Below are positions 4,097 through 46,857 of a DNA stretch of 46,857 bases, in pieces. Position 1 is the stretch's first letter. Every line of letters starts with the position of its first letter. Position numbers and translations under genes: made by a program. Below the pieces are notes generated by a model that was not told the DNA's origin, did no database searches, and saw only the letters and a list, made by a program, of their open reading frames with translations. The DNA comes from a virus, in IMG/VR virus record IMGVR_UViG_3300005337_000009, positions 1 through 46,857 of that record, one strand, 5' to 3'.

Positions 4097-5001
4097 AATA
4101 TCGCTTCAATGGTTGGGTTTTGTGGGATTCCGTCGATGGAATAAGTTAGGAATTTGACTTTGATTTGGTGAGAAACTGCGAGAGAAGGATTGGCCCAGAT
4201 GTCAATTCGTTGTTGATCGGAAAGCCCGGAGGAGACGGAGAACCGTCCAGCTTCAATTCGTTGTCCAACTGGAGTTATGTAAAGGTCGCAAGGACCTTTA
4301 TCACAAACCAAAGCTCCAACCATTCCGCGGTATTTGCCTTCTCCTTCTTGGAGACCGAGGCAAATGAATTCCTCATCTTGCCAATTCTTTCTTTTCAACA
4401 GATGCCAGACACGGTTGTTCTTGTCAGACAAGAAGCCTTTTTGCGACGGCGGTTTGCGTTGTTTGGGGATGGTGTAGGGGCAGTCGTTGATGCGATACAT
4501 CATACCTTCGTAACCAAGAGAAACAAACGCTGAATAAAAATAATTGGCATCAGCTTCATCTTTTACTCTTTGGGTTTCTACGGCAAATACATTTGTACAA
4601 ATGGGTCCTTTGATATAAATATCTTCAACAAATCTCTTCTCAAATCCCTGTCCATAATCAACCCTATCAAACACATGATATTCCACCAATTTCGTATCCT
4701 CATTTGCTTCTTGCCTAACCGGAGTCACCGCCCCAAGGATCCTCTGGAGAGGCCAGCCATGGACATAGAGTTCCCCATCGAGCACAATGTCTGATTTAAA
4801 CAACTGTAGGAGGGGTTGCGCAAGGTGGTCAAGAAGCCCGACAGGAAAAGGCTGTAGGTCGCGAGACTGGAAGTGTCCGGCTTGATAGAGTGCTCGAACG
4901 CCGTTGAGTTTTGGCTGGACATAACAGGGGAAGCTGACGCGGTGTGGTTCATAAACGTGAGCGAGAAGTGGACGAATCCCGGCGGTTTGTGGTTGAGTCA
5001 T
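4093..5001 (-). CDS. ATP-dependent DNA ligase
   Basis: A 302-aa nucleotidyltransferase. The adenylation motif is KLNGVRA (Lys at about residue 31, with Asn in place of the usual Asp). Downstream are LDGELYV (motif IIIa region), YEGMMYR (motif IV) and LLKRKNW (motif V), and a C-terminal OB-fold-like segment follows. It seals nicks in replicated or recombined DNA. I chose the start MTQPQTAG because its ATG overlaps the stop of the polymerase gene; a longer form would add eight residues. The length fits minimal phage ligases. Confidence 0.9.
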   Translation of the reverse strand: MTQPQTAGIRPLLAHVYEPHRVSFPCYVQPKLNGVRALYQAGHFQSRDLQPFPVGLLDHLAQPLLQLFKSDIVLDGELYVHGWPLQRILGAVTPVRQEANEDTKLVEYHVFDRVDYGQGFEKRFVEDIYIKGPICTNVFAVETQRVKDEADANYFYSAFVSLGYEGMMYRINDCPYTIPKQRKPPSQKGFLSDKNNRVWHLLKRKNWQDEEFICLGLQEGEGKYRGMVGALVCDKGPCDLYITPVGQRIEAGRFSVSSGLSDQQRIDIWANPSLAVSHQIKVKFLTYSIDGIPQNPTIEAIL

Positions 5002-7715
5002 AGTTTGAGAGGCATATCTCCCCAAGATGGACCGAAGGTTCCATCAAAAGGAATCGTAAGTTTCGTTCCTGCGATAGTCAATTCGTTATCAAAATAACTT
5101 CTTACTTTGGGTCTGGCCCATTCTCTGAGGAACTTGGGCCACTGACCGCAGAGTGCGTCGTGGACTTGGTGGAGGGGTTCGATGAGGAGGGAGCCGGGGA
5201 CCATGCGTGAAAGCGACTGAATAGTTCCCGACCAATAAAATGTTGTGCCATCGCAAGTTGTAAGTCGGAAGCGACGTTTATCCACCTCAGCAACGCGGTT
5301 AGCTGGGTCACGCCAGAGTCTGAGCATTGCGAGGTTGGTGGAGTATGTGGTAGTGGATTGTGGTTCATGAGCTAAAAATTCCTTAATCGTATCTTTGATA
5401 TCCCGTCCGAATCTGCGGCCAAAGAAGATTCTCTTTTGGCCAGACGGTGATATAAGTTCTCCTTTAGAAACTAAGGTCGATTCTGCCCAAGTGTGCCAAA
5501 GGGAAATACCAGGGTAGCGAGAAAAGTAGAAATTTTGAAGTTGGGTACAGACAGAGTGTTCTATATAAACAGGAACTCCAGATTCCTTGAATGAGTCCTT
5601 CATGATAAGGGTCATCATGGTAGGAATTCCCATTAAGTAGTTAGTTCCATGTTGAATCTTTTTACATCCTGTGTAAATCCAATCTCCAACGAGGGAAAGA
5701 ATAACTTTCCAAGGTTTTCCGTTGGTCCAGAATTTGATTGATTCGCGGTCAAGTTCCCGGACTGCATCGCCCCAAAGATACATGAGGGCGATGATCTTCG
5801 CTGGTTTCAGACCGAACTTGTAATCATCGAACATGGTTGGATCACCAAGGCGCAGGCAATGCGCGGCCACGGTCCAACCATCAGCACCTTCTAGATCACA
5901 TTGGAAGAAGTCGTAGTCGGGATCGGCGGTATAGTTTCCTCGGAGCTTTTTGGTGATTGTAGTGAGATTAGCCCCTGCGCCAGTTGGAGAAGTTTTACAA
6001 CTAAATCGTCCTGTTTCTGTACCAACCACGTTGTAAGCGCAGCGGACTCGTCCGTCCCTGTCAGTAGAAATATTGAGGGTTTCCAATAATCCTTCAAGGT
6101 GCCGGTGTTCAAGAATTGCAGACAGGAATTTATCTCCCGGAAATTTTTTGCGTAGTGCAAGGTTAGAGTCGACATCGGAGGTTAGAGTTTTGGTTCGGAG
6201 TCCGCCGTCGAAATTGGTTTTGTATTGTGGGGGATACGGAGAGATTTTAAATGGGCCAACTTTACGAAGTTTTCCTGATTTTGTTGGTTTGGGGGGGAGC
6301 TGATAAAGGGCGTCAATAAGTCTTTGCGAGCTAAGTGAGCCTTTCGCTCCTCTAAGTTCAACTCCGGAGAGTTCATTAAGAGTTCTGGCGACATCGCTGA
6401 GTTTAAGGATGGTTTCATTTTTCTTTTTAAGAACAGATTGTTGATCGTAATTAATCCCCCGATGCATCATATATCGCGCCGCATTGAGCATGGCGATATT
6501 GTTCTGGTAATGTTCTTGTTGTTTTCCAGTGACGCAGGAATCGAGAGACTCGCAGATTTCGAGAGTGACGGCTACGTCCATACAACAGCCTTGAGCGAGA
6601 TTCTCGCCAGTGGTCTCATACATTTCCTCGTCTTTCCAATGGGGCTGACGGGTGTAGATGGAAGCGCCAACGGAAAGAGATTTTGGAAGCTCGCAGTATT
6701 GCTCCCACATCTTGAGCATGGTGTCTTCAACAATGTTACGGAGAAGGATTCCGTAACCGAACTCTAGAACGAAGGCGTCGTAGAGGGAGTTTTGTAGAAC
6801 CTTTGGGACATCCACACGAGACATGAGTCTCGCAAAGGCTCGTAATATTGCCACATGTTCGACGGGATTAAATTTCCACCAAGCAATCGCAAACGCCTTA
6901 GTAGGTCTTGCGGATAATGCGACACAACGCCATCCAATGTATCGCCTCTTCTTGGAATCTGCTCGTACTCCATCGTTAACACAATCATTCGGTAGCCCTC
7001 CCTCAATATCCAAGCTGCACCTTTGTCCACTTGGCCAGTTGTCCATGATATGGCAAATGGTGCTGGAGTCGTAGGATGTAATGAGTTCGCGGACAGGCAA
7101 TACCAGTTGTGGATCTGATCCTTCTTCCCTCGCACGGGCAAGAGCATGTTTGAATCTGGGGAAGTTGCCATCAGTTCCCCAGAACCTAAGTATCCCCGCA
7201 GGATGAAAGCCTGGGATACATTTGCGAAAATGTAAAGCGGAACCAGATGTCCCCATAAACAGGCTACCAGACCACTCTGAGATTTTGAAGGGGTAATTTT
7301 TTGGGTCCTTGGGTCGTGGTTCGTTTGTCTTTGCGGCATGTAAGGCAGTCCCTCCCAAAAGGACGCAGATGTTAGGCTGGAAAAGATCGAGGTCATGGCG
7401 GAGTTGGGTTAAACCGGATTGAATTTCTTCGCCTGTCCATTCGAATCGGGAAATGTCGTTTTGAGGTGGTCGAACTCCGCAGACGTTTCCAACAAACACC
7501 TTATTCCGGTCAATCCCTGCGTCTCGTAAACATGAGTTAAGAAGCTGGCCACTAGGTCCAGAGAACGGGACCGAACATTGTTCCTCGGTTTCTCCAGGGG
7601 CTTCTCCAATGATTGCGATTCGATAGGGACATGGGGATTCATCGGCAGGGAATTGATTAGGGACAAGACGACGAGAGGTTATAATTGAGGGGGGGAAAAG
7701 GGGAGAATCGGTCAT
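4998..7715 (-). CDS. Uracil-DNA-glycosylase / family A DNA polymerase fusion
   Basis: This 905-aa protein joins two enzymes. Residues 33-200 form a uracil-DNA-glycosylase-like domain with GEAPGETEE (37-45), PFSGPSGQLL (50-59) and HPAGILR near residue 180; the FeS cysteines of family 4 glycosylases are not evident. The rest is a family A polymerase: the 3'-5' exonuclease region begins at SLDIEG, with LQNSLYDAF as the second exo motif and CCMDVAVTLE as the third. Polymerase motif A is CDLEGADGW (Asp607), motif B is KKIQHGTNYLMG (His689, Tyr693) and motif C is VHDAL (Asp853). It is the replicative polymerase of the phage. In motif A the position of Pol I Glu710 is Asp612. It overlaps the ligase gene and the upstream small gene by 4 bp each. 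Confidence 0.93.
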   Translation of the reverse strand: MTDSPLFPPSIITSRRLVPNQFPADESPCPYRIAIIGEAPGETEEQCSVPFSGPSGQLLNSCLRDAGIDRNKVFVGNVCGVRPPQNDISRFEWTGEEIQSGLTQLRHDLDLFQPNICVLLGGTALHAAKTNEPRPKDPKNYPFKISEWSGSLFMGTSGSALHFRKCIPGFHPAGILRFWGTDGNFPRFKHALARAREEGSDPQLVLPVRELITSYDSSTICHIMDNWPSGQRCSLDIEGGLPNDCVNDGVRADSKKRRYIGWRCVALSARPTKAFAIAWWKFNPVEHVAILRAFARLMSRVDVPKVLQNSLYDAFVLEFGYGILLRNIVEDTMLKMWEQYCELPKSLSVGASIYTRQPHWKDEEMYETTGENLAQGCCMDVAVTLEICESLDSCVTGKQQEHYQNNIAMLNAARYMMHRGINYDQQSVLKKKNETILKLSDVARTLNELSGVELRGAKGSLSSQRLIDALYQLPPKPTKSGKLRKVGPFKISPYPPQYKTNFDGGLRTKTLTSDVDSNLALRKKFPGDKFLSAILEHRHLEGLLETLNISTDRDGRVRCAYNVVGTETGRFSCKTSPTGAGANLTTITKKLRGNYTADPDYDFFQCDLEGADGWTVAAHCLRLGDPTMFDDYKFGLKPAKIIALMYLWGDAVRELDRESIKFWTNGKPWKVILSLVGDWIYTGCKKIQHGTNYLMGIPTMMTLIMKDSFKESGVPVYIEHSVCTQLQNFYFSRYPGISLWHTWAESTLVSKGELISPSGQKRIFFGRRFGRDIKDTIKEFLAHEPQSTTTYSTNLAMLRLWRDPANRVAEVDKRRFRLTTCDGTTFYWSGTIQSLSRMVPGSLLIEPLHQVHDALCGQWPKFLREWARPKVRSYFDNELTIAGTKLTIPFDGTFGPSWGDMPLKL

Positions 7716-11479: not shown

Positions 11480-12241
11480 TTATTTGGTTGTGTTTGTTTT
11501 TCCTTTATCTAGTGCAGCTTGAATGATGTCCCATTTGAACTCGAATGTCGAAGGAAGACCAAGAGTATTTTTGAGCTCATACTTTTGACTTGGCATGGTT
11601 TCGATTTCCCATTTGTAAGTGTTGTTTAATCCCGATGGTTGAATCTTGACTTGTGCCCGCCAGCAGTTGGTGAACCAAATGCTCATGTTAGTTCCAACTT
11701 GACCGGGCCAATTGACTTTGACAGGAAAGATAGGAAATCCCTCTTTGTCTTTTTCAAGTTTCTCATGGGCGATGAGCACAATGTGCTTGCGCATGAGGGA
11801 AAGGGTTCCTAGGAATTGCCGACTACAATTTGCAAAGAATCCCCATTCTTGTTTGGTCATCTGGGATTTGTTTTGAAGTCGAAGGACTTCGGCAATCATG
11901 ACTTCGGAGAGATTGGTTGCAGAGTCAATGACTACGGTCTGGATCGCGGGATTTGCATCGGCTTCGGTGAGAAGTTTGACAAGACGTTCATACCGCTTTG
12001 GCATCGGGACAGGGACGGACTTACCGTCCTTAACTTCTCGATCGAGAACATCGAAACCAATGGGAAGAGGGAGATTCTTTTCTTTGAGGTAACGGAGGGT
12101 ACCTCCAAGATTGATATCGATGTCGATGATGTAAGCTCCAGGGAATTGGCAGGCAATGGTGGTTTTACCTTGACCGGAAGAGCCTTGGAGAATAAGGCGA
12201 AGCTTGTCGGCTTCGTCGGCGTAGGAAGATATAGGCTGCAT
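11480..12241 (-). CDS. Sak4-like / RecA-fold ATPase
   Basis: A 253-aa P-loop ATPase. Walker A is GSSGQGKTT (about 20-28), and a hydrophobic strand ending in VVIDSATNLSE near residue 105 is the Walker B region. The later strand HIVLIAHEKLEKD matches the segment after Walker B in phage AAA_24/Sak4 proteins. Sak4 proteins are short RecA-like recombinases that promote single-strand annealing with a partner SSB. The neighbouring 169-aa protein would be a natural partner. The ATG overlaps the upstream TGA by one base. Confidence 0.82.
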   Translation of the reverse strand: MQPISSYADEADKLRLILQGSSGQGKTTIACQFPGAYIIDIDINLGGTLRYLKEKNLPLPIGFDVLDREVKDGKSVPVPMPKRYERLVKLLTEADANPAIQTVVIDSATNLSEVMIAEVLRLQNKSQMTKQEWGFFANCSRQFLGTLSLMRKHIVLIAHEKLEKDKEGFPIFPVKVNWPGQVGTNMSIWFTNCWRAQVKIQPSGLNNTYKWEIETMPSQKYELKNTLGLPSTFEFKWDIIQAALDKGKTNTTK

Positions 12242-12492
12242 CAGAGTTTGAGAGGAGGTGGAGTCAAACGCGCGCGGTCGATGAAAGACTTGGCTTGAAT
12301 GACAAGTTTTGATAAGTCAATTCCTCCAAGCATTTCTGGAGAATCGTCCAAGTGTGTATGGATGAAGATGTAAAACCAATTACTTTTGTTTCGGTCATTT
12401 ACATCCACAGTGTATTGCTGCCGGTCTTCGACAGAGGAACTGTACTCTGGTGCATAGGCGATAAGCTCGTCTAGGGCTTCGATTGTGGTCAT
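12241..12492 (-). CDS. 83-aa hypothetical protein
   Basis: Starts MTTIEALDELIAYAPEYSSS. The start at 12,492 avoids overlap with the upstream 79-aa gene; an ATG nine codons upstream would overlap it by 17 bp. A mixed alpha/beta pattern is seen (WFYIFIHTHLDD strand region). No recognised family. The stop overlaps the ATG of the Sak4-like gene, suggesting coupling. Confidence 0.62.
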   Translation of the reverse strand: MTTIEALDELIAYAPEYSSSVEDRQQYTVDVNDRNKSNWFYIFIHTHLDDSPEMLGGIDLSKLVIQAKSFIDRARLTPPPLKL

Positions 12493-12502
12493 AAAGATAA
12501 GG

Positions 12503-12742
12503 TCAATCTTCCATTGCAAGTTGGAGAGTTAGTTGACGTTTGGTAATCTTGGGTTTGACGTCAAGGAGAAGTTGTTCCTCGCGAGATGGGACGTAGGAAC
12601 GGTTGATATGAGAGATATAAAAGTTTCCATAACCCGCGGCAGCAAAGCCGATTTCTCCGGCAGATTTGTAGGTATCCTGTTTGGAATGTTTGACGAAGGA
12701 GTCAGAGAAATCTTCGGATCGGATGAAGAGTTGGAAGGTCAT
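12503..12742 (-). CDS. 79-aa hypothetical protein
   Basis: Begins MTFQLFIRSEDFSDSFVKHS; the C-terminal part is rich in K, Q and L. No recognised family. The ATG overlaps the stop of the 36-aa gene upstream (ATGA), which supports both genes. Confidence 0.6.
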   Translation of the reverse strand: MTFQLFIRSEDFSDSFVKHSKQDTYKSAGEIGFAAAGYGNFYISHINRSYVPSREEQLLLDVKPKITKRQLTLQLAMED

Positions 12743-12850: not shown

Positions 12851-14047
12851 TTATCTCGGATTGGTTGGATTCCAGGTGACAGGTTTGAACGCCGGACTCA
12901 TCAAGTATTTCATGGCCGCGGGCTCGTTGTCGCAAGCCAATGTACAAACGTCGTGATAAGGACACATACCATACTTAACCACACAATTAGCGTCGTTCAT
13001 TGGATAGACTCCTCGGCTGACCGAATGGAGAAAGTCTTCAATGAGCAGGATTGTGTCTCGCTTCCAACGGGAAAGGTCGGTGTCGGAATACTCCGAATTA
13101 ACGTTCGACGGATAGTACGTCCGCTTAAAAGCGAGAGGAGGTTCGCCACCTTTTGCTCCTCGGGCGATGAGACTAGCAGAGGAATTTGTCTTATTTGGTT
13201 TTTTGAAAAAGATTCCATTATGGACGAAGGATTTGGGTTTGATATCGGGCCAGAGTTGTTGCGCTGCCCAGACATAGCCACGGACTTGAGAGGACAATTC
13301 AAATCCGCGGAAGTAATCTGGAGTGTCTATGGAAGAAGTCTTGTGGTCGAGGACACGGGGACGGCCATTGATGGAACATATGAGGTCGATTCGTCCGGAC
13401 CAGGCGAGATGGATGCGAACAGGAGTTTTTGGTGTCGTAGCTGAAGTAATCCAAGTTTCTTGATTTAATATTTTGGCTAGATCCCATAGGGATAGACTTA
13501 AATCCAATACAGCCATCGGAATCTCGAAGCTTCGCTCGATGATCGGGCCTTCGTCATCGGCTAGAATCTCCAGCTCGTAGTCTGGATGAAGTTCGACATT
13601 GGACTGAGCCCTATAGTGCTTCATCACTTCTAGCGCGGCGACCGGAGTTCGGTGGTCGTAAGCGAGGATGTCGGGAGGGATGGGATTGAGAGAGAAGTAG
13701 TTGAGGATAGCTCGGTCTTGAGCCTCCTTGCCATAGCTATATTCAATCATAGCTGTATCATGACTTGGATGATTCCTTGTCCATTGCCAAGTATGAAACA
13801 ACTCCAACCCCTCATGAATAGCCCCTCCAAAGGTCAGTGCCGAGTTCCTCGCATGAGCTTCTCTTCCAAGGACCAAGTATTGCCAAGCGTTTCGATGGCA
13901 GCGTTTGATGTGGTCAAGACTGGTATTGTCAAGGACAAGGAGAAAATTCCCAGGCTCGCCTTCGATAGGAGAAAGGAATGGTCTTCGGACGTTGTCGATT
14001 GGGTCAGGGATTTCGGTGAGGGTTTGGGACAGGTTTAGGTTAAACAT
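12851..14047 (-). CDS. PD-(D/E)XK nuclease with C-terminal cysteine cluster (RecB/Cas4-like)
   Basis: A 398-aa nuclease of the RecB/AddB/Cas4 type. Motifs in order: GGAIHEGLE (His78, Glu79), GRIDLI (Asp221), RVLDHKTSS (Asp234, Lys236) and QVRGYVWA (Gln254). Cys50 and a C-terminal set (Cys355, 362, 368, 372) are placed as in iron-sulfur versions of this family, so a 4Fe-4S cluster is likely. Such enzymes resect DNA ends. Together with the Sak4-like ATPase and SSB candidate it makes a recombination module. Its start lies next to the large structured RNA block, with no Shine-Dalgarno sequence. Confidence 0.88.
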   Translation of the reverse strand: MFNLNLSQTLTEIPDPIDNVRRPFLSPIEGEPGNFLLVLDNTSLDHIKRCHRNAWQYLVLGREAHARNSALTFGGAIHEGLELFHTWQWTRNHPSHDTAMIEYSYGKEAQDRAILNYFSLNPIPPDILAYDHRTPVAALEVMKHYRAQSNVELHPDYELEILADDEGPIIERSFEIPMAVLDLSLSLWDLAKILNQETWITSATTPKTPVRIHLAWSGRIDLICSINGRPRVLDHKTSSIDTPDYFRGFELSSQVRGYVWAAQQLWPDIKPKSFVHNGIFFKKPNKTNSSASLIARGAKGGEPPLAFKRTYYPSNVNSEYSDTDLSRWKRDTILLIEDFLHSVSRGVYPMNDANCVVKYGMCPYHDVCTLACDNEPAAMKYLMSPAFKPVTWNPTNPR

Positions 14048-15286
14048 AAAGGAAGTGCCAGAGATAGAGTCACGGCAATGGCGTCAGAGAAGAAGCTCGA
14101 TGCTCTGTTTAACCTCGAGGTGTGGAGTTTGTGAGACTCCGAGCGGGAACACTTTTCTTCTTCAACACAGGACGGTAGAAAGCCTGTCTAGCAGGGTTGA
14201 ACTTACAATCTAGCTACTGAGAATGCTGGCAATCGCTATCTATCTCTGGCAAAGGAAAAGGACAAGTTGGCACGGAAGAACTGACATCCGTTGGGCATTC
14301 GAGGTCGCGACGCTCGCTGTTTAGGTCATTAAACCGACAACGCCTTTCACTATAGCTGCTTCCAACTTGTCCAAAACATCAGCCTTTCGGATTTACATCT
14401 TTCTATTAAGCTTGAGAAGATGAGGAACTCAAGCGGCTGAAAAAGAATCGGCGGGAAGAGCAGGAAGATAAATCTTTCCCTCGCTTCCTATCGCTGGCCG
14501 TCAGCGGAGAGTTATAACTCAGGTTCCTTAGCAAGAAATAAGTGCTTGATACGGCATATTTACTCTCAAAAGAATCCGGTGAGACAGCGCCGGGACTGGA
14601 AGGTTGGAGGTAGGAGACTTCACCCTAGAGGTAGCTTTATCGTTGCTTGCCCACGAGAAGAGTTAGAGGCACCGTCACAGAGCATTTCTATAACAGTAGC
14701 ACACCACGTTGGCCAAACGGACACTCTTCTAAAGCGTGCCGTGGATTAAGCGCCACGGCGTCGCTAAGGGTTCGTAGCATTCGTTAACCATCACCCATAA
14801 GGTTAACGCTGGGAAGTTCCTTTAGTTTAACGACTCGCACTTCCAACCTATTCCGGTCGATGACAGGTAAGCTGCCACACTACAAGTCTTTAGTTGTTTT
14901 ACCTCGAACATAGACTTGCAAACAACGAGGGAGAGTTCTGACGAGTTTAACGAGCTAGGCAGTACTCACAACCACTCGCTCGGGAGATCGGTGGCTCAAG
15001 GCTCCTGTCTCCAAAGAATCCCGGAATGTTAAGGAGCCGGGTCTCCTAAAGGACGTTATCAATTTTACGCCATGACTCCAATATCTTTAGGCGGACGAAC
15101 TTCCCCACCGTCACTGGGCTTATTCAAGCAGAGAGGAAGGTTTGCGATTACGCACTAACCTACAAGATGCGGAGGGTTTCGGCTACGCATAAACCCACTA
15201 GGACTTTATTGGCGACTGGTTGGTATTGGATATGGGCCATGGAATGTAAGATTTGTTTGGCTCGAATTAGTGCGGTGGATTTTGGT
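14048..15286. ncRNA. Large structured non-coding RNA candidate (about 1.1 kb)
   Basis: 1,239 bases without any protein-like frame, in a genome that otherwise packs genes with overlaps. The core from about 14,090 to 15,200 is dense in perfect helices. Examples: 14,260-14,270/14,362-14,372 (11 bp, closing a multi-stem domain); 14,379-14,384/14,435-14,440 enclosing 14,410-14,416/14,428-14,434 (7 bp); 14,738-14,744/14,753-14,759 (7 bp); 14,782-14,789/14,801-14,808 (8 bp); 15,000-15,006/15,032-15,038 (7 bp). Two H-type pseudoknots are visible at 14,883-14,926 and 15,167-15,196. This is the scale of the ornate phage-associated RNAs GOLLD and ROOL; I cannot assign it to either. Flanking genes are on the minus strand, but the sequence does not decide the RNA strand. 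Confidence 0.72.
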
Positions 15287-15571
15287 TCAATCTTCATCGG
15301 AGAACTTTTTCATTTGTGCCAAGCGTTGGGCAGATGGAACAACAGATCGTTTGGTTTTGGGGTTGCCAGAACTGACAAGGGATTTGATCTTGCTCGGCGT
15401 CGCGGCGACCATTCGGCATTTCATAACGATGGCTTGGAGTTGGGCATCACTGGCCGTTGCGAGCAGCGGGTTTTCTCGAAGGCTCAGTAGGGCTACCAGC
15501 GGCGCGTCGTCGCGGAGGAGCTCCTCGATCGAGAGATGGATTGGGGGGGACTGGTTCAGGAGTTCGCGCAT
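15287..15571 (-). CDS. 94-aa protein, possibly the C-terminal half of a frameshifted gene
   Basis: Begins MRELLNQSPPIHLSIEELLR and is protein-like to its end at FSDED. It overlaps the upstream 140-aa frame by 125 bp. That frame loses protein character shortly before a run of seven C (minus strand, near 15,543-15,549), and this frame gains it there. One base fewer in the run would join them into a single protein of about 193 aa. It may be an independent overlapping gene, the product of programmed slippage, or half of a gene broken by a homopolymer error. No family recognised. Confidence 0.6.
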   Translation of the reverse strand: MRELLNQSPPIHLSIEELLRDDAPLVALLSLRENPLLATASDAQLQAIVMKCRMVAATPSKIKSLVSSGNPKTKRSVVPSAQRLAQMKKFSDED

Positions 15572-22951: not shown

Positions 22952-23032
22952 CTATCTCTTCTGACTCAAAATTAGCGCAATCAATTCCCGGAGGAATTTC
23001 GTTGGCCAATCGTTTGTTTCTTTGGTTAACAT
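22952..23032 (-). CDS. Possible 26-aa peptide
   Basis: Frame MLTKETNDWPTKFLRELIAL followed by six residues ending SQKR. The composition is that of an amphipathic helix, and it fills part of the gap between the 49-aa gene and the 139-aa gene. No Shine-Dalgarno sequence and no overlap with a neighbour support it, so it remains tentative. Confidence 0.3.
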   Translation of the reverse strand: MLTKETNDWPTKFLRELIALILSQKR

Positions 23033-23043
23033 AAAACTGACTT

Positions 23044-23066
23044 GAAAACCTAGGACTCGAACCTAG
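23044..23066 (-). other. tRNA T-arm-like element, copy 1
   Basis: On the minus strand the bases form a perfect 5-bp T-stem (CTAGG/CCTAG) around the consensus T-loop TTCGAGT, followed by seven bases like the 3' side of an acceptor stem. No matching 5' acceptor, D-arm or good anticodon arm can be found upstream, so this is not a complete tRNA. A similar element occurs at 23,727-23,748. Confidence 0.45.
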
Positions 23067-23099
23067 ATTCTCCGTGTCAATTCTAGTCCCGATGATCAA

Positions 23100-23249
23100 T
23101 TAAATGATTCCGTGTAACCACCGACGTACTGCTGTGGCAATGCCGTCGTATTCATCGGCGGTTATTTTGTGCTTTACCTTTCCATCTTCGCATAGACAAG
23201 TAACCAATACTTCACCCGTCCAACGTATCTCTACGGTTCTGTTTTTCAT
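23100..23249 (-). CDS. 49-aa hypothetical protein
   Basis: Frame MKNRTVEIRWTGEVLVTCLC then 29 residues ending RRWLHGII. A three-strand pattern (TVEIRW, VLVTCLC, KHKIT) followed by a helix (DEYDGIATAVRRWL) suggests a small alpha/beta fold. Protein-like composition and orderly neighbours support it. Function unknown. Confidence 0.6.
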   Translation of the reverse strand: MKNRTVEIRWTGEVLVTCLCEDGKVKHKITADEYDGIATAVRRWLHGII

Positions 23250-23262
23250 AATCTGAAAGTTT

Positions 23263-23409
23263 TCAATCTCGATCAATATCCGCTTTGATCCTTTCCTTTC
23301 GAATCAGCTTCCTAATTTCCTCCAAGCTCACTCGCTTGATCGGTTTCCCGCCACCCTTAGGTTCCGGCCAATAGCTGGATTTCCAGCCAATCGGATTCGG
23401 AGTTTTCAT
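23263..23409 (-). CDS. 48-aa basic protein
   Basis: Frame MKTPNPIGWKSSYWPEPKGG then a lysine/arginine-rich helix (LEEIRKLIRKERIKADIDRD). The ATG at 23,409 overlaps the TGA of the 37-aa gene. Longer starts upstream read low-quality sequence in this frame where the 37-aa gene is coded in another. Function unknown; nucleic-acid binding is possible. Confidence 0.55.
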   Translation of the reverse strand: MKTPNPIGWKSSYWPEPKGGGKPIKRVSLEEIRKLIRKERIKADIDRD

Positions 23410-23519
23410 CGAAATCCCCTTAGTGCTCCGATTTGCTCCTTTATTCTTCCTCCTTCCTTGAATTCTATCCATTGATCCTCCCACCTTCCTCCGCCGTGAT
23501 CAATTTTAACCTTCCTCAT
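23406..23519 (-). CDS. 37-aa hypothetical protein
   Basis: Frame MRKVKIDHGGGRWEDQWIEF then 17 residues ending GALRGFR. Both ends overlap their neighbours by 4 bp (ATGA), the same arrangement as in the rest of the arm. The strand-turn-strand pattern suggests a small beta domain. Function unknown. Confidence 0.55.
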   Translation of the reverse strand: MRKVKIDHGGGRWEDQWIEFKEGGRIKEQIGALRGFR

Positions 23520-23686
23520 CCTTTCTCCTTTCCGCGAGCATTTGCTCGCTGTTTCTGCTTACGCATTTCCCTTTTCCATTCTGCCAAGGCTTGTCGCGCG
23601 TAATTCGACAAACCTTGTCCGTTTTTGTATGACATAGATGAGGAGCGAAGGACTAGCGAGAGAGTAACGTTCCTCCCCGTTTCCAT
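23516..23686 (-). CDS. 56-aa protein, possible ribbon-helix-helix regulator
   Basis: From the ATG at 23,686 the protein starts METGRNVTLSLVLRSSS and continues with GLSNYARQALAEWKREMRKQ. A strand near the N-terminus followed by a GLSxYxRQAL-type helix resembles ribbon-helix-helix (Arc/CopG-like) DNA-binding proteins, though the first helix is short. An internal ATG at 23,635 would remove the strand. The start lies between the arms of a 16-bp inverted repeat, which would suit autoregulation. The family assignment is tentative. Confidence 0.5.
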   Translation of the reverse strand: METGRNVTLSLVLRSSSMSYKNGQGLSNYARQALAEWKREMRKQKQRANARGKEKG

Positions 23687-23718
23687 TGTCTCTCTGTCTC
23701 ATTTCGCTCCTCATCTAT
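23634..23718. promoter_or_regulatory. 16-bp perfect inverted repeat spanning the start of the 56-aa gene
   Basis: ATAGATGAGGAGCGAA at 23,634-23,649 is matched exactly in inverted orientation at 23,703-23,718. Four further outer pairs follow after one mismatch, and an inner AGAGAG/CTCTCT pair lies inside. In the minus-strand RNA this forms a long stem that places the start codon of the 56-aa gene in the loop and the internal ATG in the stem. It could be an mRNA switch or a protein operator. Confidence 0.55.
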
Positions 23719-23726
23719 ATCATCCA

Positions 23727-23748
23727 AAAGCCTAGGGATCGAACCTTG
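23727..23748 (-). other. tRNA T-arm-like element, copy 2
   Basis: On the minus strand, a T-loop TTCGATC sits in a stem with four of five pairs, followed by GCTTTTG like the 3' acceptor side. It resembles copy 1 at 23,044-23,066 (shared CCTAGG and CGAACC blocks). No D-arm or anticodon arm is found. The two may be tRNA-like structures or remnants of an attachment site at a tRNA 3' end. Confidence 0.4.
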
Positions 23749-23870
23749 ACTCTGAATTTATATCTTACAACGATTCTTTCCAGTTCTTATTTTTTCATAC
23801 TGCCGCCCCGCGAAGTTGCCCTCGCGAAGCGGAGTGTATGAAAGCGGAATCAAACTTCCGCCGTCCTTCC

Positions 23871-41359: not shown

Positions 41360-44300
41360 ATGCCGTTCACCTATCGCCAGGTAAAAGACCTTTACGACAC
41401 GTTGGCCGACGCCGGCGCGGTAACGAAGCCGTTGGCTGAGTGGGCAGGTGACATGTCAACGATGACAGGGAGCGATCTTTACGATGCTGGATTGCATGAC
41501 AATGTAATCAAAAGGGCATCGGTTGGAATTGACCGGGCTTTGGAGGCGACAGGATTGCCAAAACTTGGAGGAGAATTCGGAAGGACAGTCAGCGAACCGT
41601 TTGGCATGGGTGACCAAGGTCAGTCGATCGGTGAGGGACTGCCCCGTATGGCAGTCAATTTCCTTCCGGCGATTGCGGCGGAAGCGGTGACAGGAGGCGG
41701 GGCAACTCCATTTATCCTTGGGGCATTGGGAACGGGGGCTTTATCGGGCGCTGAAACATACACCGCGACTGGAAGTCCTGCGGCTGGTGTAGTTTCTGGC
41801 GCGGTCAATGCGTTACTTCCGGGAGTGACAGGGAAGGTTGAACAAGGAATTTTGGGTCGACTTGGAGCGAGAGAAGTAGCAGGATCGATTGGAAGGACTT
41901 GGGAAAGTAAATTAGGAGAAGGATTCGTTACAAATCCTGCAATGTCCAATGGAATTCCAAGGACACTGGATGCTGTCAAGCAATATTTCCCAACTAACTT
42001 CGGTCAGCGTGCAGCAGCTTTTGGAGGAGGCCAGCTAGCCGCGGCTGGGATTATGGGAGGAAGTGAATTGGCTCAACAAGCTTTAGCTGGTCAGCCAATC
42101 TCGAATCCATTTACCCCAGAATTTGGATTGGGACTCGGGCTATCTCAGCTCCCGTTTTCTCTCCTTCACCTCGGAGGCAAACTCGTCGGAGGAGCCGGAA
42201 AATCTCCGATGGAACGAGCCAATGATCTCCAGAATTTGATCGACTTGACGACGAGGGGAACGAATCTCAAGGCCGCAAGAGATGCCTCGAAAGAGGCTAC
42301 GCCGGTCATGAAGATTCCTGAGGTAAAACCGATCTTGACCGATCCGGTCGCGGCAGCCAAAATCAAAGCGGATACGGATGCAATCTTGGCCAATCTTGGC
42401 CAACAGAGAAAGGATATAGAATCGAATCCTACACCCGATAACATCGACAAGCTCAACGAGATCAAGATTCAAGAAGATCAAGTTGGAGACAAACAAGTTG
42501 AACAAACAGGGGGAGTTGGAGTTGGTTTGTCTCAACCGACGACTGGGACGATTCCTGTCACGGGGGAAGCCCATTTCTATGGGAATAAACAGAACAAACC
42601 TGAGACGGGATTTCATATTGTCACGGTCAAGGAAAATCCAAACGATGCATTGAAATATCCCGATGGGACTCCGGTTCAACCTGGAGATCGGATCCAGTGG
42701 CCCGCTGGGAGGAAAGATCCGGAGGTGAATAAGGATTCAAGTGAGAATTTCTTGGTTCCAAAGGGAAGGTTCTCGAAGATCGTCGATAAGGCGATGGAAC
42801 AAAAGGTGATTGATGAAATCAAAAATCCTGAACTTCCAGATCAATCGGGTGGGGATTTGGTTAGTCATCAGGCCAGATTGGCCAAAGCTCAAGAAGAATT
42901 TAAAGCAAGACAAGAACAGCATAAAATCAATCTCGATGATCTTGAAAATATCCGTCAAGATCTTGCGCTCCGTGGAACTCTTTCCTATGGAGAACTAGTT
43001 GACAGTCTTCAAGAAGTCAATCGGATTCGAGAACAAGCAGGATATCCAGAGATCGATCTTGCGACATTGGCTAAAACGATCAAGGAAACTCGGGCGACCA
43101 GTCGAAAAGCTGGGCTTTTGTCTGCCATCGAAGAGACAAAAAGATTTGAATTGATTCAAGAGGCCGCTCATGCGGATGCACTTTTGAAGGATCAAAAAGG
43201 CGTAGATGTCTATGGGAAGATTAGTGAGATGGGAGAGAAAGGCGATCCTGAGGCACAGAAGATTCTTGATCTTTATGAAGAGCTTTCGGCCAGTCCAGGC
43301 AACCGCGGACTCCTTGCCAGTTCTGGATTGTTCTGGAATCATGCTCAAGAACTTGAGGCTAAAGGTCAGCTGACTTTGGCTAAAATGGCTTCATTTAGTC
43401 AAGCCGTGGTCAAATCCCCAAAAGGTCCGAAAGGGATGTTGGAGAAACAAATCACTGTCGAGCTCCCGCCGACAATCTTCAAGGCATTGACAGCTGAAGA
43501 AAAGGCAATGAGACAAATTGGGGCCGAGGCAATTTTGAAAGTCACCGCGGGAGATGCTGAATCTGACGAGGCCAAAGTTCTTCGTCAGTTGGTTTATGAT
43601 GGGTCATTTGGAAAAGGCTTGTCTAAAGAAGCTGTTGCAGAGGCTTTTTATCATGCAAGAATCGAAGGTATTGAAACGGACCAAGATGCTGAGATAGCTG
43701 CTGGGGAATGGATGGAATCGCCGAAGGTTCATGGTTGGGTGAGAGAGTTGGCGAATAATTTGGTTAAGAATGAATTGCCAGAGCCGCAATTTAAGGTTGT
43801 CGATGAATCGCCATTTGCGCTCAGAGATTCTGAACGAGTATTTAACGGTCCCTTACTTGAGGCTTATGATAGACTTGTGGCAAAGGATCGAATGAAGTTT
43901 CCCACGGTCAGTATTGGAGAATTGGCTCAAGAATCAGGAATTCCTTTAAATGAGCTTCATGATCAGCTTAGAGCACTTCATCAACAGGGTAAAGTTGTAA
44001 TGGGAGTAGGAGATTTCTCTCTTTCAAATAAAGTTACACAAGAGGGAGGAATGATGATTCCGGGATATGATAAACCGGTATTGACGGTTAGGCCATTAGA
44101 TCCAGAGATTTCAAGGAACTTACAAGAGGAAGAAAAATTCTCTCCTCGTTTGGAGGAAGAAATTAACCATCTTATTTTGGCCTCCGAAGAAAGTCATGAT
44201 CCTACTGATCCGGAATCTTCAATCCGTACTCGTAATGAAGCTATTCAAGAACTTATGCAAGATATGGATGAAAAAGATCATCCTGCACATGAATTTAGAA

Positions 44301-46857
44301 AAGAACTTCAGGATTATGGAATAAAGTTGGGGATATGGAAACCTTATACAAAGGAGCAGTTGTCTAACATTCAGACTTTGGGACGAGGAAAGAAATACGA
44401 TTTCAAACGAGGAGATACTTATTATATCTTTGATAGTTGGCGTGGGTTAGATCAAAAAGAAGGACAAGCTAATATTCTTAAAAATCAACTTCCCCCGAGT
44501 TATGATCCTTCTGATCCAAAAGAACAAGCAATCGTTGACCAGCTTTCTGGGAATGGTATCGAGCAGCTTCAATCAGTTTCTAAAGATCCTTTTCTTACCC
44601 AAATTGCTCAGGCTTGGATAAAGCAATTCTCAAATCTTCTCAAACTTCAGCAGGGATATGTTCATGATGGAGTGGGCACGTATGCTCGTGGGCATATCGA
44701 AGGACTTGGGAATGGCATTTTCTATGACAAGTCGAATATCTCAGCTAAACCAGAAGCTCGAGAAACCGCGGTGATTCATGAGATGGGGCATGGATTGACT
44801 CAGCAGTTAATCGACGAGCTCGGTCCAGATCATCCTTTGATAAAGGAACTCGACGGCATTCGTATGCGAGCTCGACAGGCTTTGTCTGCTGACCTTAAAG
44901 CTTACCTCGACGCGGCAACAAATTCCGACTGGCTCGGACGTTATCGCCGCGGACAAGCCGACGCCTCAGAGCTCGGTCCCGACGCCGCCAGTCGACAAAT
45001 CCTTTATGGCCTTCTCGACAACAAGGAGATGACTGCCCAACTCTGGTCCAGTCACGATTTTCGTGAACATTTCCGGGGGATCGATGGGAGGACCGGAGTC
45101 TGGCGGAAGTTCCTTGAATGGACCAAAAAGATTCTCGGCCTCGGAAATGTTGATAACACGCTTCTTGGCGAATTGCTGGGGGCGACGGGGCAATTGATGC
45201 ATAAAGGAGAATGGCTCGCGGATATGGAAGGGTTCGGAGAAAGATGGTTTGAAAGTCAAGGAAAAGGCGGAGCTTATGGACAGGCGCAGACACAACGCGC
45301 GATGGGCATTCTGGCGGAGATTAACGATGGAATGTCGCCGGAGGAAATGTCGGGAAGTTTGCAGATGGGCGAGGGGAAATTTAATCCAGAATTGGTGAAG
45401 AGGAAGGCGAAGCTGGAGCAGACGTTTCAGAATCTAGATGAGGAGACTCAGCAGTTACATGATGTTTTGGATGAACATGGACAAGACGCGTCGGTCGATG
45501 GAGTGGATAATATGGTCTTGGAAGCTATGTCGGATGGGAAAGGATTGGAGGATACTTTGGATTTGCTTCCCGACTCGGCGGTGAAGTATATCTTTGCGAA
45601 ATTGGATGATCATAAGGATGTGTTGGATGTCCTTGCTGCGGCGACCAAGGAAAAGAATAAAGGATTGATTAATATTATCAATCCAAAGTTGGTCAGAGAT
45701 TCTGTCAAACCAACGTTGAAGCAGGTAGAGAAGATTCTCAAGAATCGCGATCGCCATTTGGATTTGGCCCAGAAACTTGTCAATCTCCAAGCCGTCGAGC
45801 CTCAAGGTTTCGTCAACGCCGCGGCGAGTTATGCACTGAAGGATACGGAGAATTTTATCGAGGGTGAAGGAAAGGGAACAGGAGGAATCATGTCGTGGTT
45901 GTCTAGGTTTCTTGAGCCTATGGCTCAGAAGGCCAGACGAATTCCTGAGATGGCAGAAGGAATCTCAAAGGGATTTGAACTTGGACCGAATGCGAGGAAG
46001 ATGTTCTCGGAAGCAATGAAGGTCTTCGGGATGGACACGAGTTCTCCAAATCTCGATGTGCTTTCGCATGACTCGGTGCAACAGAGTCAGAAGGTTTTCC
46101 AGACTCCGAAAGAATTGAATGCGGTGGACAAATGGATTCATCTAAATCAGGTGGAAGGTAAGGACGCTGTGGTCATGCTTCCAGAATCTCATCCAGAGGT
46201 ACAAAAAATCCTCAGCAAATTGACTGCTGAGGAGAAGGAGAGGGTTCGGGATATGGTAGCGAAGCAGGGTAAGTCAACACAGATGTTGAATGCGCAGAAG
46301 CTTGAGAAGATGAAACAAATCGCCGCGGTCAGCGCAGCGGGACATATCTTGAAGGAATCTGGATTGAAGGTCAGAGATGCGATTGGTTTGGCCGATGCTA
46401 CGATCAAGGCGATTGTGGATATGAATGATCCGGTCATGCAGTTGACGGCACAGGCGCAATTGCAGGCTGTCCAAGCTAGACTTCAGCCAGAAGTTTTTCT
46501 TGAGCTTCTCAAATTCTCTCAAGGCGAAGCCCAGAAGATTAACGATTGGAAAACCTACTTCGACAAAAATCCTTTCTGGGCCACAGCACAGAGGACAGAG
46601 AGGTATCATGTTCAAGGTCGTAATAAAGCTGGAAAGCAAATCAAGAATCAAGCAAGTTCTCTAACCGAGGCCCGAGAAGTCGCTGAGCGGCTTGGAATTG
46701 GTAAACCAGAAATCATTGACTCTTGGAAGGGTCGAGAAGATGAACCTTTTTCTTTTCCGAATATGCCCCCAGAAATGGCACAACGGATGGAACAGATTGA
46801 GGAGAATCAAATTCAAATGCTCAAAGCTTCTGGGGTAATTGATTCTCCAGAAGCTGA
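41360..46857 (+). CDS. Giant virion protein with zinc-peptidase motif, N-terminal part
   Basis: The frame opens at MPFTYRQVKDLYDTLADAGA and stays open to the window edge, continuing at base 2; the whole protein is about 2,525 aa. Residues 75-215 are G/A-rich and weakly hydrophobic, as in membrane-active segments of ejection proteins. Residues 450-1,000 are charged and helical, with a winged-helix-like part (SIGELAQESGIPLNELHDQL, near residue 855). A zincin motif VIHEMGHGL (His1140, Glu1141, His1144) is followed by NKEMTAQ (Glu1223), the layout of a gluzincin active site. It is probably ejected with the DNA. Confidence 0.87.
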   Translation, partial: MPFTYRQVKDLYDTLADAGAVTKPLAEWAGDMSTMTGSDLYDAGLHDNVIKRASVGIDRALEATGLPKLGGEFGRTVSEPFGMGDQGQSIGEGLPRMAVNFLPAIAAEAVTGGGATPFILGALGTGALSGAETYTATGSPAAGVVSGAVNALLPGVTGKVEQGILGRLGAREVAGSIGRTWESKLGEGFVTNPAMSNGIPRTLDAVKQYFPTNFGQRAAAFGGGQLAAAGIMGGSELAQQALAGQPISNPFTPEFGLGLGLSQLPFSLLHLGGKLVGGAGKSPMERANDLQNLIDLTTRGTNLKAARDASKEATPVMKIPEVKPILTDPVAAAKIKADTDAILANLGQQRKDIESNPTPDNIDKLNEIKIQEDQVGDKQVEQTGGVGVGLSQPTTGTIPVTGEAHFYGNKQNKPETGFHIVTVKENPNDALKYPDGTPVQPGDRIQWPAGRKDPEVNKDSSENFLVPKGRFSKIVDKAMEQKVIDEIKNPELPDQSGGDLVSHQARLAKAQEEFKARQEQHKINLDDLENIRQDLALRGTLSYGELVDSLQEVNRIREQAGYPEIDLATLAKTIKETRATSRKAGLLSAIEETKRFELIQEAAHADALLKDQKGVDVYGKISEMGEKGDPEAQKILDLYEELSASPGNRGLLASSGLFWNHAQELEAKGQLTLAKMASFSQAVVKSPKGPKGMLEKQITVELPPTIFKALTAEEKAMRQIGAEAILKVTAGDAESDEAKVLRQLVYDGSFGKGLSKEAVAEAFYHARIEGIETDQDAEIAAGEWMESPKVHGWVRELANNLVKNELPEPQFKVVDESPFALRDSERVFNGPLLEAYDRLVAKDRMKFPTVSIGELAQESGIPLNELHDQLRALHQQGKVVMGVGDFSLSNKVTQEGGMMIPGYDKPVLTVRPLDPEISRNLQEEEKFSPRLEEEINHLILASEESHDPTDPESSIRTRNEAIQELMQDMDEKDHPAHEFRKELQDYGIKLGIWKPYTKEQLSNIQTLGRGKKYDFKRGDTYYIFDSWRGLDQKEGQANILKNQLPPSYDPSDPKEQAIVDQLSGNGIEQLQSVSKDPFLTQIAQAWIKQFSNLLKLQQGYVHDGVGTYARGHIEGLGNGIFYDKSNISAKPEARETAVIHEMGHGLTQQLIDELGPDHPLIKELDGIRMRARQALSADLKAYLDAATNSDWLGRYRRGQADASELGPDAASRQILYGLLDNKEMTAQLWSSHDFREHFRGIDGRTGVWRKFLEWTKKILGLGNVDNTLLGELLGATGQLMHKGEWLADMEGFGERWFESQGKGGAYGQAQTQRAMGILAEINDGMSPEEMSGSLQMGEGKFNPELVKRKAKLEQTFQNLDEETQQLHDVLDEHGQDASVDGVDNMVLEAMSDGKGLEDTLDLLPDSAVKYIFAKLDDHKDVLDVLAAATKEKNKGLINIINPKLVRDSVKPTLKQVEKILKNRDRHLDLAQKLVNLQAVEPQGFVNAAASYALKDTENFIEGEGKGTGGIMSWLSRFLEPMAQKARRIPEMAEGISKGFELGPNARKMFSEAMKVFGMDTSSPNLDVLSHDSVQQSQKVFQTPKELNAVDKWIHLNQVEGKDAVVMLPESHPEVQKILSKLTAEEKERVRDMVAKQGKSTQMLNAQKLEKMKQIAAVSAAGHILKESGLKVRDAIGLADATIKAIVDMNDPVMQLTAQAQLQAVQARLQPEVFLELLKFSQGEAQKINDWKTYFDKNPFWATAQRTERYHVQGRNKAGKQIKNQASSLTEAREVAERLGIGKPEIIDSWKGREDEPFSFPNMPPEMAQRMEQIEENQIQMLKASGVIDSPEA
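46828..46857. repeat. Terminal 30-bp overlap, right copy
   Basis: Identical to bases 1-30. See the left copy: removing one of the two restores one continuous gene across the junction. Confidence 0.9.

Follow-up and report, generated by a model that had tools for sequence, protein, structure and literature searches.

A conserved structured RNA in a phage replication operon, probably from an uncatalogued family of large modular phage RNAs

A real, conserved structured RNA is very probably encoded on the minus strand of the block studied here, positions 14048-15286 of a 46,857-nt viral contig (the window), where it lies between phage genes. Judging from sequence comparison among five phages, in several of which a conserved core, the motif TAATGACC and a 3' domain follow one another in that order with variable domains inserted between them, we consider it probable that this RNA belongs to an uncatalogued family of large modular structured phage RNAs, likely trans-acting. 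The sequence-only reading of the block had proposed one large structured RNA, possibly of a new class; substitutions in the homologues agree with it, as they preserve two stems of the core, H1 and H3, along with the helix that closes the 3' domain. The proposed RNA is as follows.

14056-15200, minus strand: structured RNA, with core, GACC motif, 3' domain and 5' hairpins homologous to spacers of contigs L073, L095, L127 and L129.

The window is probably close to a complete phage genome, since a single giant ORF seems to be split between its two ends (plus strand, 41360-46855 and 2-2110). Its leftward genes from ~3.3 to 22 kb carry replication and recombination functions, with products that include a uracil-DNA glycosylase (UDG)-DNA polymerase fusion, a methyltransferase, a Sak4-like annealing protein, a PD-(D/E)XK exonuclease and a UvrD-type helicase. 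In the fusion gene (4998-7715, minus) the UDG domain starts a family A-like polymerase, and the gene is conserved along its length in related phages. Shine-Dalgarno sequences are almost absent upstream of genes in the window and its relatives, which suggests that the host is not reliant on them. Within this leftward operon the block has the exonuclease gene immediately downstream, on its left, and small unknown proteins on its right, the neighbours it had been assigned beforehand.

12851-14047, minus strand: PD-(D/E)XK (RecB-type) exonuclease gene (Pfam PF12705, E = 9.6e-11; phrog_1218, E = 1.2e-13).
15160-15297, minus strand: 45-aa frame of weakly coding-like composition, which overlaps the RNA 5' end or lies just ahead of it.

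Over 14048-15159 (1,112 nt), coding-like dicodon usage was absent from the ORFs of either strand. The block is thus gene-free over that length, as had been claimed, but its last ~127 nt overlap the 45-aa frame. Within this frame QPVANKVLV resembles QPCHNKVLV, the start of a 93-aa protein of L095 and L073 (7/9 identities, E = 0.009 in a two-sequence comparison), and the frame is possibly a truncated start of that gene; Pfam and PDB searches gave the resemblance no support. The 93-aa protein itself looks GroES-like, judged by eye only. The companion claim that genes elsewhere abut or overlap holds for the most part, but there is a second long gap at 22976-23837 (minus), which folds more strongly than the block. 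This spacer has a predicted folding z of about -7 to -8 on the minus strand and an inverted repeat of 27 nt (23623-23649/23703-23729). It also has two ends that resemble tRNA T-arms (GGTTCGATCCCTAGGC, AGGTTCGAGTCCTAGG), but ARAGORN finds no tRNA in it; similarly strongly folded spacers occur in relatives (G009:38775-39530, G013:16613-17170).

Folding of the block was compared with that of shuffled sequences. On the plus strand none of the 60 shuffles reached a folding energy as low as that of the block (z = -3.3), and on the minus strand one of 60 did (z = -2.5); by itself this is suggestive of an RNA, neither proving it nor settling the strand. Energies of the homologues, computed with a pseudoknot-free model, were not clearly lower than those of their shuffles (z = +0.9, 0.0, -2.0 and -0.6). 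Perfect helices of at least 7 bp showed a modest excess (18 against 12.6 ± 2.9), and two of at least 11 bp with a span below 220 nt were present where the shuffled mean was 0.04 (maximum 1, 25 shuffles). One is the 11-bp domain-closing helix described earlier, found at its place, and the other a 13-bp perfect helix at 14056-14068/14239-14251. The 11-bp helix is missing from the shorter homologues.

14260-14372, minus strand: domain closed by the 11-bp perfect helix 14362-14372/14260-14270 (helix search).

An Rfam scan had been proposed as a check on the block, and it was blank: among the 4,227 families of Rfam 15, none reached its curated score anywhere in the window, and permissive thresholds still gave no match in the block or its homologues. 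Similarly, in cultured phages and plasmids blastn found only chance matches to the block, and in phages it found none to the compact homologues. Portal-protein searches found no relatives, and ~60 related viral contigs were recovered by alignment of the relatives' DNA polymerases. Most of these were without a comparable block (the large gaps of relatives G001, G010 and G013 are not homologous to it), and one, L095, matched weakly in the spacer region that precedes its exonuclease. When the block's minus strand was aligned pairwise with spacers from L095 and from L073, a close relative of L095, similarities appeared in a consistent order (window CCTCGTTGTTTGCAAGTCTATGTTCGAGGTAAAACAACTAAAGACTTG versus CGTCGTTGTTCAGCCAGCTATGTTCGACGTTAACAACTAAAGCTG). 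The pattern ATGTTCGA-N3-10-ACAACTAAAG had six matches in 2.9 million viral contigs (IMG/VR); two lie within long ORFs and four are RNA members, in L073, L095, a 42-kb relative (L127) and a 149-kb contig (L129). An independent pattern for the GACC motif (GCGTAATGACC) returned the same four contigs and none besides, so that core and GACC motif are parts of one element. A covariance model built from these four members with the window left out (R2) matched the window at a single site, 14942-14874 minus, with E = 4e-6, and a fuller model (R1) found a single copy per genome in the four carriers and none in 24 further records; E-values of both models are rough owing to short calibration. All members are IMG/VR contigs and may be incomplete. 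Three further core-pattern matches in genome contigs were rejected because the core model does not match them, as were weak model matches in L071 and L061, which resemble coding sequence. A short spacer of an unrelated viral contig (L038:7570-7800) has repeated hairpin-like units carrying AGTTTAACGA; a search for the double repeat gave chance or coding matches only.

The core is the best conserved part of the RNA, and covariation in it was assessed by direct pair counting.

14880-14942, minus strand: conserved core, an H-type pseudoknot (the R2 match; covariation of H1 and H3).

Its invariant segments are CTATGTTCGA and ACAACTAAAG, and over 50 nt it is near-identical in the four other members. 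H1 (14926-14930/14902-14906) and H3 (14912-14918/14883-14889) interleave and so form an H-type pseudoknot. All five pairs of H1 are kept in all members, one of them swapped between G-C and C-G. In H3, pairs 3-5 counted outward from the loop are U-A, G-C and A-U in the window and G-C, A-U and C-G in the others, and thus changed on both sides. When the core partners were slid by 1-3 columns, pairing fell from 98% to 22-41%. Since the family counts only five members, four of which have almost the same core, this covariation is mainly that of the window against the rest. Two H-type pseudoknots had been read from the letters of the block, at 14883-14930 and at about 15170-15196, and both can be drawn; in the first, the stem 14883-14889/14912-14918 is backed by the homologues, but its partner stem is a different one, 14902-14906/14926-14930. 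A stem GTTGTTT/AAACAAC is broken in two of the four homologues (L095 and L129) and is not claimed here.

Downstream of the core, two further parts are held in common.

14324-14331, minus strand: motif TAATGACC, corresponding to CCCGGCCTGCGTAATGACCGG of the other members, where it holds a matching place in the order, between core and 3' domain.
14056-14257, minus strand: 3' domain, with a layout shared with L073 and L127 and a helix that differs in sequence and is perfect nonetheless.

The 3' domain consists of TTCCTTTG, the 13-bp closing helix (14239-14251/14056-14068) and an internal TAGCGAT (14232-14238) opposite CCGTGAC. With helix strands bracketed, it reads TTTCCTTT-[GCCAGAGATAGA]-TAGCGAT ... 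CCGTGAC-[TCTATCTCTGGC]-ACTTCCTTTATG in the window and GCTTCTTT-[GGGCAACCGTAG]-TAGCGAT ... CCGAGAC-[CTACGGTTGCCC]-TTCTCTTT in L127. Between conserved TTT/TAGCGAT and CCGNGAC/pyrimidine-run anchors, 12 of 12 closing-helix pairs form in each of the two, and 10 of the 12 differ on both sides; L095 keeps 11 of 12. Within the variable 3' domain of the L073 copy (L073:3600-3640), a T-arm-like hairpin GGGAGTTCGAGTCTCCC is a possible tRNA-derived insertion. The compensatory changes, in homologues that were found by independent motifs, refute for the core and the 3' domain the notion of a decayed gene or of fortuitous helices and similarities. That notion draws on the only modestly low folding energies and on counts of helices of at least 7 bp near background, and for the block as a whole we find it hardly credible; for the central 550 nt it may hold.

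The sense of the RNA is the minus strand, as read from the homologues. Each of the five copies runs in the direction of the gene that follows it, which in the window means minus. Upstream of the core, L127 and L129 have a hairpin whose stem differs between them but whose loop is GNRA in both (GCAA, GUAA), a motif that exists only on the proposed strand and so supports it. A plus-strand RNA, considered on account of A-rich linkers and a slightly better z, was abandoned once homologues appeared; the excess of unpaired A equals that of shuffles on either strand. The 3' end is sharp: about 8 nt separate the closing helix from the ATG of the exonuclease. Placement of the 5' end, at about 15165-15200 and close to two hairpins, is uncertain.

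15138-15161, minus strand: 5' hairpin A, AGGTT..GCG TAAT CGC..AACCT (L073 spacer 1 alignment).
15118-15129, minus strand: 5' hairpin B, GCTT GAAT AAGC (spacer 1 of L073 and L095).
14332-14881, minus strand: window-specific centre of ~550 nt with many helices, which we infer to belong to the RNA.

Hairpin A aligned with TGTAGGTTCAGCGTAATCCAGACCT of L073 spacer 1 at a local score of 66 (shuffled maximum 54), hairpin B has counterparts in GCTTGTATAAGC (L073 spacer 1) and GCTTGAACCTAAGC (L095 spacer 1), and the match to L095 spacer 1 is 76% over 59 nt (E = 1e-3). This spacer 1 is a second structured spacer, upstream of the 93-aa gene (L073:2388-2591, L095:2820-2924), that has two hairpins in common with the 5' end of the window RNA and also ends in a stem, a pyrimidine run and then ATG. 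Because the hairpins resemble an element that is separate in L073 and L095, modules may shuffle between neighbouring spacers. The centre had no match in any relative; it amounts to ~550 nt that the window has beyond the compact L127 copy, between core and GACC motif, and the family thereby ranges from about 300 nt (L127) to about 1150 nt (window) through domain insertion. That the block is one RNA can accordingly be upheld for the core and the 3' domain and is likely for the 5' hairpins, but for the middle it stands as a proposal. No promoter or terminator was recognisable at the RNA ends, where the host's own signals may differ.

Conservation of the RNA does not follow that of the proteins. 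L127 and L073 have the same core letter for letter over 50 nt (100% identity), with polymerase and exonuclease proteins that are only ~32-33% identical. The L129 RNA is 88% identical to that of L127 over 121 nt, and the L129 proteins in the 12 kb around the RNA showed no similarity to those of the other carriers. From these alignments it would appear that the RNA travels between phages or that a partner holds it near-invariant, and both imply function. The next gene is the exonuclease in the window, a 222-aa protein in L095 (with L073 alike in this position), in L127 a 254-aa protein homologous to the 225-aa one of the window, and in L129 an unrelated 167-aa protein: four different next genes in five phages, with one RNA copy per genome.

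These arrangements bear on whether the RNA is instead a cis-acting leader or intergenic element that governs translation or processing of the next gene, for instance by presenting its start codon. The constant co-direction with the next gene would suit such an element, as would a closing helix that ends ~8 nt before ATG in the window and L073 (~27 nt in L127) and the rarity of Shine-Dalgarno sequences in the carrier phages. However, that scarcity is general in these phages and not particular to the next gene, 300-1150 nt is very long for a leader, and one would expect a leader to stay with one downstream gene, so that the variety of next genes and the single copy per genome make action in trans the better reading. 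We regard a cis role as rather unlikely and action in trans as probable on the present sequence evidence.

The near-identity of the RNA in a 149-kb contig without protein match to the others, together with differing insertion positions, could also be explained by a mobile RNA element or intron-like ribozyme that jumps between phage spacers with the variable domains as cargo. Hints of 5' and 3' parts flanking an ORF in L073 and L095, and the possible truncated gene upstream in the window, point the same way. Against this, no gene was seen to be interrupted and to resume in a 3' exon, and the RNA is placed between genes rather than within one; the group I intron model did not match at the block and no intron family appeared in the Rfam scans; and among the tested adjoining genes there was no recombinase or endonuclease save the operon's own exonuclease. 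An intron-interrupted gene starting from the 45-aa frame was considered and dropped, as only 7/9 residues agree and there is no C-terminal exon; tblastn (E ≤ 1) found no C-terminal part of the 93-aa protein in the window. We judge a mobile element unlikely.

For the trans-acting RNA that we prefer, the following course can be proposed. The RNA would be read from the minus strand in the leftward replication/recombination operon, from about 15165-15200 to 14056, and would be released from the operon transcript or transcribed from its own promoter. It would then act in trans: the loops of the core that do not vary would dock on a component common to many hosts, for example the ribosome or RNA polymerase, and the variable domains might build size or multimers, as in GOLLD and ROOL RNAs. 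Naming any particular partner is doubtful; a host machine would be the most likely one by analogy with GOLLD, a choice made with low confidence. The picture as a whole, that of a trans-acting class of ornate RNA passed horizontally between protein-unrelated phages, with an invariant core on a host machine and growth by insertion to >1.1 kb, is put forward tentatively. Very few classes of large ornate phage RNAs are known, and a further one, with its own conserved core, a defined 3' domain, compact 300-nt members and one member >1 kb, would offer an independent system for asking what their purpose is. With members this compact, solving a structure is practical, and loops that stay invariant speak for a specific partner. 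The findings also suggest that such RNAs, when confined to uncultured phages, are absent from Rfam.

Among known RNAs, GOLLD and ROOL are the nearest in kind; both are phage RNAs often found near tRNA islands, and GOLLD reportedly binds ribosomes in pull-down assays and assembles into cages (PMC12286853). GOLLD (RF02032) is likewise a large phage or prophage RNA with a conserved 3' region and a variable remainder (PMC12286853). In contrast, the core of the block's family is a pseudoknot which the GOLLD model does not match, and some members are only ~300 nt. The family does have a conserved core and 3' domain with variable insertions, but these conserved parts gave no match to the GOLLD covariance model in the window or the homologues, at gathering or at E ≤ 10. 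ROOL (RF03087) is likewise large, found in phages and prophages, and has several pseudoknots and no known partner (PMC12286853). Its model has 574 positions, whereas the block's family spans ~300-1150 nt with domain insertions and does not keep to a ROOL-like 570-660 nt. The ROOL model matched neither the window nor the four homologue contigs, a result whose weight lies on cmscan since control genomes were also blank. A very divergent GOLLD or ROOL member, one of the identities first suggested for the block, would account for the size, the phage location and the conserved 3' part with its variable remainder, and L129 alone has two tRNA genes, ~3 kb upstream of its RNA. With no tRNA in the window, and no Rfam match in the window or any homologue even at permissive thresholds (E ≤ 10), we hold this identity to be very improbable.

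Group I introns (RF00028) are also pseudoknotted and occur in phage genomes at different sites. They interrupt genes, whereas the block's RNA lies between genes with no 3' exon and ends before the start codon of an intact exonuclease. The RF00028 model had no match at the element in the window or the four homologue contigs; its sole match in the window (12240-12526 plus, 12.3 bits) is far under the cut-off and away from the block.

The dicistrovirus intergenic IRES is a pseudoknotted RNA directly before a start codon that works in eukaryotic cells. It is like the block's RNA in having a pseudoknot before a start codon and unlike it in that the gene downstream of the block's RNA is not conserved. 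In setting, size and modularity, then, the RNA is akin to the large ornate phage RNAs, and it stands as a relative in kind outside the catalogued families tested.
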